Position numbers and translations under genes: made by a program. The notes below the pieces were generated by a model, which saw only the letters and a program-made list of their open reading frames with translations, was not told the DNA's origin and made no database searches. From positions 1-48,454 of the forward strand of contig SXPC01000125.1 of the NCBI GenBank assembly GCA_005778225.1: a stretch of 48,454 nt of DNA, in the 5' to 3' direction. Source of the stretch: Planctomyces sp. Lineage in GTDB: Bacteria; Planctomycetota; Planctomycetia; Planctomycetales; Planctomycetaceae. The number at the start of each line of letters is the position of its first letter. Positions within the stretch are counted from its first letter, which is position 1. This document shows, piece after piece, positions 39,435-47,865 of this stretch.

Positions 39435-40940
39435 ATGCCTTCAAATAATTCTATCGCTCATCGTCACTCCCTGCTGTCTCGCGTGTTGCCGCTGTTGCTG
39501 GCCGCGTTGTCAGGCTGCTGCTGTTACGATCCCTGTGGTTACAACTCCTGCTATGACCCTTGTGGCAGTGGTTTCTATACCTCGGGGATGAACTACGGCA
39601 GCTGCGTCAACGATCTGCCGACTCTGTACGGAATGCAGAATGGCAACTGTGCTCCGATGAATTGTGCTCCGATCAGCTGTGCCCCCATCAGCACCTGCTC
39701 GACCGTCTCTCGTCCTCCCATGGTGATGCGAACCTACGTTCCACCGACCATGAGTGGCAACTGCTTTACCGGCGGTTGCGATGTCAGCGGGGGATGCGAA
39801 GATGGCCAGTGTAGCGATGATTATTTTAACGATGGCGTCATTTATGGCACGCCTGAGCCAACCATGGGCATGCCTTATGGCAATTACAGCTATCATGAGC
39901 GCTATCATCAGAACCATCACAAGGTCAGCTGGACTCAGAAGTTCAAAGCCGGCTGGAAGAAGAGGTTCGGCAAGAAAGCCTGCGATTGTCCACGGTGTCG
40001 TGAGAAACGACGTCACTTCAAGAACGGCGAAGTCCATGCACTCAACTGTGGCTGTCCAATTTGCCGCGGCGAACAGTTCGCGATGAACAGCAGCTACGAA
40101 GGCGAAGTGATCGAAGGTGATGTCGTCTATGATGGCGAAATGGTTGATGGTGAGGTTGTGGAAGGGGACGTCATCTACGAAGACGGCGATACGCACGTCG
40201 TTGACCATGGCCATAACCCGCAGACCTGCCCACACTGTCAAAAAGCCAGCAATTCTGCCATGAACCAGCGTCAGATGACTTACGATGGCGGACCAGTCGA
40301 AGGCGAAATGATGGATGGCCAGATCATCGAAGGCGATACGATTCACGATAATGGGGGTATGACGCAGTCATACCCTGAATACGGCGGCCAGCATTTTGCT
40401 CCACCAGTCCCTGCTCGTGATAACAACGGTGCAACACTGAACGGCGAGATCATGGAAGGCAGCGTGCCCGCTGACGCTAATCCTCAGCCAACATTCCGTC
40501 AGCGTCCTAACAGCGACGATGCACCTGCTCCGCCAACCTCGAACATGCCCATGCCGAACAATGAAGATGAGTTCTCTCAACCACGCCCGATTCCTGATGG
40601 AAATGTCAGCCTGAAGCCACCGCAGCAGACTGATAGCGAAGACCTCATGCTTCCTCCCACCTGGGAAGAGGCACAAGTCGCCAAGCCAATGGCTGCTCCC
40701 AAAACAACGGCGACTGTTCAGTCACTGGCTCCTCCGCAAATCTCCGCGCCAACCGAACACGAATGGGCCAGCTCTGCCAAGCCGGCGACCACATCGAAGA
40801 CAGCGGTCTATACCAAGCCCGCAACTCGCTCAACCATGGATAACCGTTACCATAACTTCGAAACCAAATCGACCAAGCCCGTCTCCCACGAGCAACCTCT
40901 CCTCCTGCCTCCCGCTCCCGAACCACGCAAGCTGAAATAA
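39435..40940 (+). CDS. Cys-rich outer-envelope lipoprotein with internal repeats
   Basis: 501 aa. Signal peptide with lipobox LAALSGC (Cys28). Residues 28-45 contain two YDPCG units; residues about 75-95 have CAP-[MI]-[NS]-C repeats. Three CxxC pairs follow in a basic region (CDCPRC about 178-183, CGCPIC about 199-204, CPHC about 263-266), as in metal-binding or disulfide knots. Residues about 218-345 carry imperfect repeats of the type [VI]-[IV]-E-G-D-[VT]-[VI]-Y/H-[DE]-[DG]-G (for example GEVIEGDVVYDGEMVDGEVV). The tail is Pro/Ala/Lys-rich. No family is recognised. Secreted, cross-linked envelope or pore-rim protein is the inference. No clear ribosome binding site. Confidence 0.85.
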   Translation: MPSNNSIAHRHSLLSRVLPLLLAALSGCCCYDPCGYNSCYDPCGSGFYTSGMNYGSCVNDLPTLYGMQNGNCAPMNCAPISCAPISTCSTVSRPPMVMRTYVPPTMSGNCFTGGCDVSGGCEDGQCSDDYFNDGVIYGTPEPTMGMPYGNYSYHERYHQNHHKVSWTQKFKAGWKKRFGKKACDCPRCREKRRHFKNGEVHALNCGCPICRGEQFAMNSSYEGEVIEGDVVYDGEMVDGEVVEGDVIYEDGDTHVVDHGHNPQTCPHCQKASNSAMNQRQMTYDGGPVEGEMMDGQIIEGDTIHDNGGMTQSYPEYGGQHFAPPVPARDNNGATLNGEIMEGSVPADANPQPTFRQRPNSDDAPAPPTSNMPMPNNEDEFSQPRPIPDGNVSLKPPQQTDSEDLMLPPTWEEAQVAKPMAAPKTTATVQSLAPPQISAPTEHEWASSAKPATTSKTAVYTKPATRSTMDNRYHNFETKSTKPVSHEQPLLLPPAPEPRKLK

Positions 40941-43821: not shown

Positions 43822-44394
43822 TCAACCCTTCGGTAACAACTCCGTCAATTCTCCAATCAGCCGCCTGGCGATCTTCACCAGCGGCTTGAGTTGCTCTGCA
43901 TCCGGGTTGCAGGCATCGAGAGCTTCGCGGTAATACCAGACGACTTCTTCCGGCGGGGCATTGAAGACCGACCAGGCATCAATGCCGTTGACGAGGTCGA
44001 AGACAATCGACTGCATGTTGTGGATCTTGTCTCCCAGCTTGACCGCGCGAACCTGCCAGTCGGAACTGCGAATCCGCTCCAGATGCATCTGCTTGCGGAG
44101 TTTCCAGGGAATCTTTTCGCCCTGGGCATCCTGCTTGATCTCCGACAGGTGAATCACCCACTCGACGATGTGCACGGGAAACGACTGCCGAAGTTGCTCT
44201 TCGGTGCAGTTGGTATCTTCGAGGACGTCGTGCAAAAGAGCCGCCGCGAGGATGTCGTCTTCATAGCCATTCTGCGCCAGAATCATCGCGACCGACGTCG
44301 GATGAATGATGTAAGGCAGCTGCCCCCCTTTGCGCACCTGCCCCTGATGGTGAAACGCAGCAACGCGAAGAGCATGTTCAAGAAGAAGCGACAT
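43822..44394 (-). CDS. Small HD-domain protein, MESH1/SpoT-hydrolase-like
   Basis: 190 aa consisting of one HD hydrolase domain. The metal-site residues are in place: His31 (YIIHPTSVA), His55-Asp56 (LLHDVLED) with the following Glu59-Asp60, and Asp122 (VKLGDKIHNMQSI with Asn126), matching the SpoT/MESH1 pattern in which the last motif reads DRLHNM. Such single-domain enzymes (small alarmone hydrolases) cleave (p)ppGpp. The N-terminus AFHHQGQVRKGGQLPYIIHP fits the family. The synthetase domain is absent. It stands alone, with repeats on both sides. The exact substrate is inferred. Confidence 0.85.
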   Translation of the reverse strand: MSLLLEHALRVAAFHHQGQVRKGGQLPYIIHPTSVAMILAQNGYEDDILAAALLHDVLEDTNCTEEQLRQSFPVHIVEWVIHLSEIKQDAQGEKIPWKLRKQMHLERIRSSDWQVRAVKLGDKIHNMQSIVFDLVNGIDAWSVFNAPPEEVVWYYREALDACNPDAEQLKPLVKIARRLIGELTELLPKG

Positions 44395-44612: not shown

Positions 44613-46631
44613 TTACGTCGTCCCCACAAGAGCAGGTGCGGTCTTCGCGACCTGATGCCGGAACGCATTGAACCGCATGTACTCCCAGTGGCAATACAAC
44701 GGGCTTTTCTGCAGCAGGTCGGGGTGTTTGCCCTGAGCTTCCACATGTCCCTGAGTCAGGAAGATCACGTTTTCGCAGCGCTTGAGGGTCGACAGACGGG
44801 AGGGAAGAATGATCACGGTTCGTCCCTTGAACAGACGCTGGTAGGCATCATCAATCAGCGACTTGACCTGCTCATCAAGACGAACTTCCGGCTCTTCGAT
44901 AATAAGTAGCGCCGGCTTACGGAGAGCAGCACGGGCTAAGGAAAGTCGGAACAATTGGCCCGCGTCGAGTTTCTCGCCGAGTTCGCCGATGGGGGTCTCA
45001 TAGCCGAAGGGGAGCTTCGTGATGAAGTTGTGAGCATGCGCCAGCTTGGCGGCTTCGGCGGCTTCGTTGAGTGTGATCTTCTCCTGTCCGCAGGTCAGGT
45101 TCTCGAGGACCGATCCGGAGAACGCGGCATCTTTCCCACTGACGTAGACACACTCCGCCCGCAGGGACTCCAGCGTCACCCAGGCAATGTCTTCGTTGTC
45201 GAACAGAATGCGTCCTTCCGTCGGCTCGATGAATCGAGGCAGCAGCGAGAGCAAGGCTTTGGCTTCAATCGGATCAGTCGAAACGACGGCGGTTGTCTGC
45301 CCGGCCTTGATCGTCAACGTCAGGGCATTGAGTAAGCGACGATCGCGATCTGTCGGGTGCTGATAAGTGACGTTCTCTAGCGCGATGTTACGAGACAGCG
45401 GATCGAGGAATTTCGCTCCGACCGCCTGGCTGACTTCGGGGATCAGTCCCAGGAACGACTGCAGGTGAACCGCGTATTTCTGCATCTCACGATAGCGGGT
45501 ATAGGTCGCAGCGAGTTCTTCCCATGGTCGGAACATGGCGGCGAAAATCAGCAGGAAGGTGATCCCGGTCGCAATCGGCATCGCCTGAGGATGGTCTTCC
45601 GCGAGGAGAACTTTTGCTCCCATCAGGAAGAGGACCATCGTGACGCACAGCAGTCCCACCGCGCGGGTCATCCACAGCGAGAAACTTTCGCCGAGTTGTT
45701 GCTTGATAGATGAGCGTTCGTGATCGGTCAGTTGCTTCTGGAAGCGTTCGGTTTCGAAGTCTTCCATGCCATAGCCTTTGACCAGCCGGCTTTTCTTCAG
45801 GCCTTCAGCGAACTGATTCATCTGGCGGTCTGCTTCGTGAATCGCGATGACTTTCTGGCGCTCGGTCCGTCGGATCTCGCGTTGAATGATCCACCAGCAG
45901 CCAAGCAGCGGGACGATCGATTGAACAGCCAGTCGCCAGTTGATGAGCAGCGCGAGCGTGAACAACACGACGAGGCTGATCGGATGACGTCCCCACGCCA
46001 TCAGCGATTGTGCTATGCCGGCTTTGAGTTCATCGAGTTCCTTGGTGAAGAGATTGACGGCATGGTTTTCCACATCGCCCGTCAGGTCCGATTGTCCCAG
46101 ACGCAAGGCTTGTCGATGCAATGTTCGTCGCCAGTTGTTGATCAGCTGAAAGGCGACGCGATACGCCACCATCCGCCCGCGGGCATGCAGCATCCCGCGC
46201 AGAATCCCCGCCAGCGCCATCGTGACAGCCAGGGCGAATAACGCTTGCGTGTTATTTCTCAGAGGAGCCACGTTCTGGTACAGCCACTGGAATAGCGGCC
46301 CCCAGGGCTTGTCGCGGGCAATCCAGACGGCAGGGAGAATTCCGGTTTCGACGAATTCTTTCTCGCCCGGTTCAGCATCGGCATTCTTCAGGTTGGCTTC
46401 ATCGAGACCGATATTCTCAGGCTGCGCGATGACGCTCAGACGCTGCAGATTTGAGTTCGTGACGGAAAGACGTCCCTGATGATGCAGCAAGTCCACAATC
46501 AGGTAAAAGCATCCCAGCTGGACAATCAGCAGGGCGGCACTCAGCACCCCTCCCAGGACGATCTGCCAGGCATTCGTCTTGTACCAGGAGTTGAGGGGGT
46601 AAATACGTCGGTAAGCATCGAGGGTCATCAT
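44613..46631 (-). CDS. ABC exporter-like protein with degenerate ATPase domain
   Basis: 672 aa, membrane domain then nucleotide-binding-like domain in one chain. Six membrane segments lie within about residues 25-370, with the exporter pattern ...WRRTLHRQALRLG...NHAVNLFTKELDELK...LINWRLAV. The ATPase-like domain (about 410-660) keeps the ABC fold pattern but its motifs are eroded: Walker A reads AVVSTDPIEAKALL in place of GxxGxGKS/T, the Q-loop Gln is missing (VSGKDAAFSG), the signature is LDAGQ in place of LSGGQ, Walker B is LLIIEEPE (Asp to Glu), and the H-loop reads ILPSRLST (His to Ser). Hydrolysis therefore looks unlikely in this subunit unless paired with an active partner. No frameshift or stop is seen. 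Confidence 0.9.
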   Translation of the reverse strand: MMTLDAYRRIYPLNSWYKTNAWQIVLGGVLSAALLIVQLGCFYLIVDLLHHQGRLSVTNSNLQRLSVIAQPENIGLDEANLKNADAEPGEKEFVETGILPAVWIARDKPWGPLFQWLYQNVAPLRNNTQALFALAVTMALAGILRGMLHARGRMVAYRVAFQLINNWRRTLHRQALRLGQSDLTGDVENHAVNLFTKELDELKAGIAQSLMAWGRHPISLVVLFTLALLINWRLAVQSIVPLLGCWWIIQREIRRTERQKVIAIHEADRQMNQFAEGLKKSRLVKGYGMEDFETERFQKQLTDHERSSIKQQLGESFSLWMTRAVGLLCVTMVLFLMGAKVLLAEDHPQAMPIATGITFLLIFAAMFRPWEELAATYTRYREMQKYAVHLQSFLGLIPEVSQAVGAKFLDPLSRNIALENVTYQHPTDRDRRLLNALTLTIKAGQTTAVVSTDPIEAKALLSLLPRFIEPTEGRILFDNEDIAWVTLESLRAECVYVSGKDAAFSGSVLENLTCGQEKITLNEAAEAAKLAHAHNFITKLPFGYETPIGELGEKLDAGQLFRLSLARAALRKPALLIIEEPEVRLDEQVKSLIDDAYQRLFKGRTVIILPSRLSTLKRCENVIFLTQGHVEAQGKHPDLLQKSPLYCHWEYMRFNAFRHQVAKTAPALVGTT

Positions 46632-46890: not shown

Positions 46891-47865
46891 TCAGTAAGGC
46901 TCTTTCCCACCCGAGAGTCGCTTTTCTTTCTCGCGAGAAATCGGCTGGTATGTGATTTCCTGCCAGCCACGCAGGTCGACTTCCAGCGGTTGGGGGTAAC
47001 CAGAGGGGCTGCCGAAGTCTTTGACGAAGTGAGCCAGTCGTTTCAGTTTATTGTCTGCTGATGGTTCTTTGGGATGCTCATAGCCCGGTCCAAGGCCCCA
47101 CAAAAACTGTGTTCCGCCTTCTGCGATGAGGGCATAGTTGACATCACTGTTAGGCGAGGTCGAAGCCTGTGGGCGGTACAACGTGATTGATTTCAGACGG
47201 AATTCTTTCCACGCGGTTGGCTGTTCCGAGCCCGGCAGTTTTTTGCCAAGAATCTGGGCCAGTTTCGCAGCCCCCTTGATGGCAGGATCGCCCCAGAAGA
47301 TCCCGGCAGGACCTTGCGGCAATGATTCAGGATTTAGCACCACGGGAAACTTCTGCACGTCGTTTTGGGAGAAGTCCGATGGTGGGAGCAGGATTCCGTC
47401 TTCGTCAACAGGGTAATAGCCGGTCTTAATCTGGATCATCACGACTGGCTGTCGCACTTCGACATCAATATGCACCTGATGCGGGTAGACGACCGAGACT
47501 TTCTTGACGGACTTCACCCAAGGCAAAGCCGCCAGTTTCTCCCCGATCTCCTGCGTCAGCTTCGGATCCGCGACCGAGAGTTTTTTATCGCCGAGCAGAT
47601 TCGCAGCGGTCCGGTCAGCCCAGCCTTCGGGCAAGGTATCAGGCAGGTTTTTCCAGACGATGGACGTTTCATCCACCTGAAACTGCGGGCTATTGATCAT
47701 GCGCGACTGCATCTTCCGCAGCGTCATGTAACCCAAAGGAGCAAAGCAGATCATCGCCATCCAGAACAGCACGATCGGCCGAAACAGCGCATCGCGCCAC
47801 GACCCAGCCGGTTCTTCCGGCTCAGCTGCAGGAGGCGTCGATTTCTTTTTCGAAGCACGTGCCAT
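46891..47865 (-). CDS. FtsQ/DivIB-like POTRA membrane protein
   Basis: 324 aa. Charged cytoplasmic N-terminus (ARASKKKSTPPAAEPEEP), one membrane span at about residues 29-50, then a large periplasmic part. The region around 108-160 has the POTRA/FtsQ pattern LAALPWVKSVKKVSVVYP..V.I.V..R.PV....IKTGYYPVDEDGILLP, closely parallel to FtsQ (PW...A.V.R..P..L.I.V.E..PVA...G..LVD..G). FtsQ links divisome proteins in bacteria that divide with FtsZ. Planctomycetes as a group are known to lack ftsZ, so this may act in another envelope process. It is neighbour to the ABC exporter gene (259-bp gap). The family call is moderate. Confidence 0.7.
   Translation of the reverse strand: MARASKKKSTPPAAEPEEPAGSWRDALFRPIVLFWMAMICFAPLGYMTLRKMQSRMINSPQFQVDETSIVWKNLPDTLPEGWADRTAANLLGDKKLSVADPKLTQEIGEKLAALPWVKSVKKVSVVYPHQVHIDVEVRQPVVMIQIKTGYYPVDEDGILLPPSDFSQNDVQKFPVVLNPESLPQGPAGIFWGDPAIKGAAKLAQILGKKLPGSEQPTAWKEFRLKSITLYRPQASTSPNSDVNYALIAEGGTQFLWGLGPGYEHPKEPSADNKLKRLAHFVKDFGSPSGYPQPLEVDLRGWQEITYQPISREKEKRLSGGKEPY

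Follow-up and report, generated by a model that had tools for sequence, protein, structure and literature searches.

The gene at positions 44613 to 46631 of a 48,454-nucleotide stretch of DNA from Planctomyces sp. (the window; contig SXPC01000125.1) raises the question of what role an ABC exporter can serve once its ATP site has been lost. ABC exporters are defined by the coupling of ATP to transport. The initial annotation had described a full-length chain without stops, and translation of the open reading frame on the minus strand gave 672 residues with no internal stop. Pfam recognized both halves of an exporter, ABC_membrane (PF00664; 1.2e-19) and ABC_tran (PF00005; 1.5e-11), and the closest NCBIfam models were those of MsbA and HepA, with scores far under their cut-offs. 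The gene and its domains are laid out as follows.

44613..46631, minus strand: pseudo-ATPase type IV ABC exporter (MsbA/ABCB-like), 672 amino acids plus stop
45450..46568, minus strand: transmembrane domain (TMD), residues 22-394, from the helices of the AF2 model
45396..45449, minus strand: linker between the TMD and the nucleotide-binding domain (NBD), residues 395-412, ...IPEVSQAVGAKFLDP..., unusually conserved
44667..45401, minus strand: pseudo nucleotide-binding domain (pseudo-NBD), residues 411-655, from Pfam ABC_tran

The AF2 model, built on a 55-sequence alignment, contained a six-helix exporter TMD and a complete NBD fold (mean pLDDT 87.9, pTM 0.76), and its best Foldseek matches were ABCB10 and MsbA (E down to 6.6e-31). 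The Pfam, AF2 and Foldseek results agree on an exporter TMD with six transmembrane helices fused to an NBD, and the exporter fold is predicted to be retained. In the model, a segment of about 75 residues (52-126) sits between TM1 and TM2.

The motif positions of the window protein were read by alignment to intact exporters.

45255..45281, minus strand: former Walker A, residues 451-459, STDPIEAKA, with A457 at the Lys position
45132..45140, minus strand: former Q-loop, residues 498-500, SGK, with G499 at the Gln position
44955..44969, minus strand: former signature, residues 555-559, LDAGQ in place of LSGGQ
44889..44909, minus strand: Walker B region, residues 575-581, LLIIEEP, with E579 at the Asp position
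44793..44807, minus strand: former H-loop, residues 609-613, LPSRL, with S611 at the His position

The Walker A consensus GxxGxGK(S/T) reads STDPIEAK. The initial annotation had held that all catalytic motifs were lost, which was correct for the glycines and lysine of Walker A, the Q-loop Gln, the Ser/Gly of the signature and the H-loop His. The wording is overstated, since E580 at the catalytic-Glu position and G558 and Q559 of the signature are kept. The Walker B Asp is replaced by Glu (E579), and P581, which follows the catalytic-Glu position, is new and nearly invariant. The pseudo-exporter is very probably ATPase-dead.

Next, the conservation of the motif loss was determined in the family. 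A query with the single protein retrieved no relatives, and a query with an alignment retrieved 80 named loci. The family set comprised 80 named Planctomycetaceae genome contigs (Schlesneria, Gimesia, Thalassoglobus, Alienimonas and others by record title), 36 sequences from whole-genome searches and the window, 117 in total, with some genomes possibly counted twice because the two collections may share them. Lys in Walker A, Gln in the Q-loop and His in the H-loop were each found in 0 of the 117 sequences, so that the orthologues with intact Walker A and H-loop that would have refuted the initial annotation were absent from the family; among intact exporters, the Lys and the full motifs were present in 38 of 38. 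The altered positions carried shared patterns of their own, namely SxDPLEAR, VGGxDPxFTGTV, LDxGQxFRLGLARA, IIEEP and FLPxRLST, and Glu occupied position 580 in all 155 degenerate sequences having a residue there. The pseudo-exporter gene was carried by 67 of 68 sampled family genomes, and in the sole exception the best matches were intact exporters only. Since the same positions were altered in every family orthologue examined, the motif loss is attributable neither to chance nor to sequencing error.

In other families of the same planctomycete class, the degenerate orthologues (n=39) were also without a Gly-rich Walker A and LSGGQ; the Walker A Lys was kept in 22 of them, the Q-loop Gln in 24 and the H-loop His in 24. 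Class-wide match counts at 1e-55 take in some intact exporters. A tree was inferred from TMD columns alone, excluding the motif columns, by a quick method without bootstrap and with some long branches; in it, a single branch with an SH-aLRT of 100 separated the 40 degenerate rows, without exception, from the intact exporters, and the topology tracked the families of the class. The best matches outside the class that were read were intact exporters. In the simplest reading of these sequences, there was apparently one loss in the class ancestor, followed by stepwise further loss in Planctomycetaceae.

Selection on the degenerate domain was estimated from the closest pairs only, as most pairs were saturated at synonymous sites. 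The dN/dS of the pseudo-NBD was 0.02-0.06 in the closest within-genus pairs (>90% amino acid identity), similar to that of the TMD, and 0.16-0.24 in two moderately close pairs (g28 and g47). In most pairs the NBD was more conserved than the TMD, which is usual in intact exporters as well. Within the family, the mean top-residue frequency was 0.80 in the linker (residues 395-414), 0.60 in ICL1 and ICL2 and 0.54-0.84 in the NBD segments; the transmembrane helices were poorly conserved (0.38-0.51). Residues Q402, G405, A406 and P411 of the linker were invariant in 55 sequences, and linker conservation of this kind was not seen in the intact exporters. A non-catalytic role, as first proposed from the window alone, is well supported by the lack of intact family orthologues, the new conserved pattern of the altered motifs and the strong purifying selection.

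The absence of an active partner gene beside the exporter, noted in the initial annotation, was confirmed for the window, and the conserved neighbour in its relatives proved to be an ABC-2-type permease gene (PF12679). In 70 of 74 family loci, and in 26 of 34 loci of another set that takes in a few further family members, this gene immediately precedes the pseudo-exporter gene on the same strand. The pairing does not reflect general synteny, as the next commonest neighbours were shared by 14 and 11 of 46 loci. In a motif scan, open reading frames with an intact Walker A and signature occurred in only 3 of about 154 pseudo-exporter loci (5 of 156 when two control loci are counted); thus, a cognate ATPase or active partner half is not encoded nearby. 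The permease segment E.EG.TA.TLLSKP..R..F..GK matches NosY (E 6e-4), and the permease therefore probably depends on a partner that has an NBD; at these loci, its only conserved neighbour is the pseudo-exporter. One family of the class has the permease without the pseudo-exporter, so the permease can function by itself or with another partner. In loci L193-L200 of other planctomycetes, it is an orphan permease, with neither a pseudo-exporter nor an adjoining ATPase gene.

In the genome of the window, the ABC-2 permease gene is found on another contig, C10 (L082:13090-14184). Parts of purH lie at the end of the window's contig, C105 (48262-48454, plus strand), and at the end of C10 (L082:17270-18436, minus strand). 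Because both contigs end in parts of this gene, they probably adjoin, which would place the permease and the pseudo-exporter some 7 kb from each other on one strand. The gene immediately upstream of the exporter in the window (46891-47865, minus strand) gave a sub-threshold match to an FtsQ-type POTRA domain (Pfam POTRA_1, E 0.001; NCBIfam FtsQ, E 7.7e-4); it was rejected as a general conserved partner, as the relatives share the ABC-2 permease instead. The downstream neighbour is as follows.

43822..44394, minus strand (same strand as the exporter): RelA/SpoT-like small HD protein (HD_4)

In 27 of 71 family loci, the query including the HD gene of the window, an HD gene likewise follows on the same strand, which may point to a connection with alarmone metabolism. 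Elsewhere in the window (39435-40940, plus strand), a 501-residue protein rich in Cys and His, which has repeated motifs and begins like a lipoprotein, had no Pfam match.

The adjacency of the pseudo-exporter and permease genes shows functional linkage, not contact, and a functional link between the two proteins is rather probable. That the two proteins form a physical complex, with the pseudo-exporter as its non-catalytic member, is a possibility that we place somewhat below an even chance. We infer both the partnership and its mechanism, and the conserved pseudo-ATPase exporter stands at about even odds of being a non-catalytic, probably dimeric partner of the permease. In this mechanism, the pseudo-exporter would dimerise like its relatives and would neither bind nor hydrolyse ATP; the pseudo-NBDs, together with the coupling helices and the linker, would form a cytosolic docking or gating platform; its working partner would be the ABC-2 permease encoded just upstream; and any transport by the complex would either draw on an ATPase from elsewhere in the genome or not need ATP. 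A role as partner or scaffold is favoured over that of an ATP-independent channel, because the neighbour is an ABC-2 permease and because the coupling loops, the linker and the pseudo-NBD are conserved rather than the membrane helices. The fullest form of the proposal, in which an ABC exporter turned into a pseudo-ATPase in an ancestor of the class, lost its remaining ATP-site residues stepwise and now has an obligatory but non-catalytic place in a mixed complex with an ABC-2 (type V-like) permease, is tentative and less likely than not.

An invariant E580 would not be expected in a site with no catalytic function left, and the pseudo-NBD may still bind nucleotide weakly or in a non-standard manner, the argument against binding being one from sequence. 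An alternative in line with this residue regards the pseudo-NBD as a sensor that binds nucleotide or another phosphate ligand via a non-standard loop, for example one gated by nucleotide level. Also in its favour are the Arg or Lys that 61 of 81 named-locus sequences have right after the former Lys position of Walker A, the highly conserved QAVGAK of the linker and the Lys, Gln and His kept in other families. However, there is no Gly-rich loop and no Walker A Lys, and the signature is altered. The helix that follows the former P-loop begins, in the AF2 model, at residue 454, a position within the old loop; since no ligand was present in the prediction, this is weak evidence against such a site. 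A sensor of this kind is improbable.

A second alternative, an ATP-independent, proton-driven secondary transporter like SbmA/BacA, is scarcely probable either. SbmA-like transporters do retain the membrane fold of exporters while dispensing with ATP, but SbmA has lost the NBDs and coupling helices and carries a conserved glutamate ladder (PMC13316013). The NBD and coupling helices of the pseudo-exporter are present in the model and form its conserved part. A candidate ladder was sought in the transmembrane cores and rejected: no Glu was strongly conserved there, and no acidic residue exceeded about 57% identity. The retained coupling helices and NBD, together with the missing ladder, make a proton-driven mechanism less likely.

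A heterodimeric exporter is equally doubtful, one in which the pseudo-exporter would form the degenerate half and the active half would come from a gene elsewhere, such as that of the MsbA-like exporter on contig C48. In well-known heterodimers such as TM287/288, the degenerate half still gives an intact signature to the active site. The signature of the pseudo-exporter is altered family-wide, so that both composite sites would be impaired. Moreover, the C48 exporter has complete motifs, fits a homodimer and is not adjacent; as it is complete and the pseudo-half cannot supply a signature, a heterodimer of the two is less likely. That degenerate halves occur in heterodimeric exporters, as the initial annotation had stated, is established (PMC7756269). 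A C48-type exporter occurred in 59 of 59 relatives searched, but this exporter was present in every genome sampled, including genomes without a pseudo-exporter match at the threshold used, and its ubiquity makes the co-occurrence uninformative. The C48 exporter is thus not supported as a specific partner. Another ABC exporter of the window's genome, on contig C41 (L075:5208-7451), has an intact Walker A but an altered signature (LTQNQ), Glu in the Q-loop and no H-loop His. Finally, local decay or a sequencing artefact has only the motif loss itself in its favour, and is rejected with near certainty in view of the identical changes across the family, the open frames throughout and a dN/dS far below 1.

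In summary, the preferred reading is that of a non-catalytic partner of the ABC-2 permease. Searches of the open-access literature for ABC pseudo-ATPases gave no match, and the main text of the essential-gene paper on Planctopirus limnophila (PMC10632474) does not mention ABC, transporter or permease. A two-fold-type ABC assembly of an exporter and an ABC-2 permease is not described in the open-access literature searched. The two genes would also encode an unstudied pair of envelope proteins, nearly universal in a family of bacteria whose cell biology is unusual. With the whole architecture kept, the ATP site discarded and intermediates in sister families, the pseudo-exporter offers a direct test of the roles of NBDs besides hydrolysis, namely docking, gating and assembly.

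Compared with the type IV exporters of the MsbA/ABCB kind, the pseudo-exporter has the same domain order, fold, coupling helices, D-loop region and catalytic-Glu position; however, every pseudo-exporter seen is without Walker A, signature and Walker B Asp, and those of Planctomycetaceae are also without the Q-loop Gln and the H-loop His. Motif loss held by selection is shared with heterodimeric exporters that have one degenerate site (TM287/288, TmrAB and TAP, with fungal Pdr5 as the extreme case; PMC7756269). Those complexes keep one complete ATP site, whereas the pseudo-exporter has neither a usable Walker A nor a usable signature, and no adjacent active half. The neighbouring permease resembles the NosY/GldF-type ABC-2 permeases (PF12679) in keeping the NosY-matching segment; the usual partner of the latter is a separate ATPase such as NosF, and none is encoded beside the neighbouring permease. 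The SbmA/BacA-like peptide transporters (PMC13316013) are derived from ABC exporters and are ATP-independent, but SbmA is without NBDs and coupling helices, and the pseudo-exporter keeps both as its conserved part.
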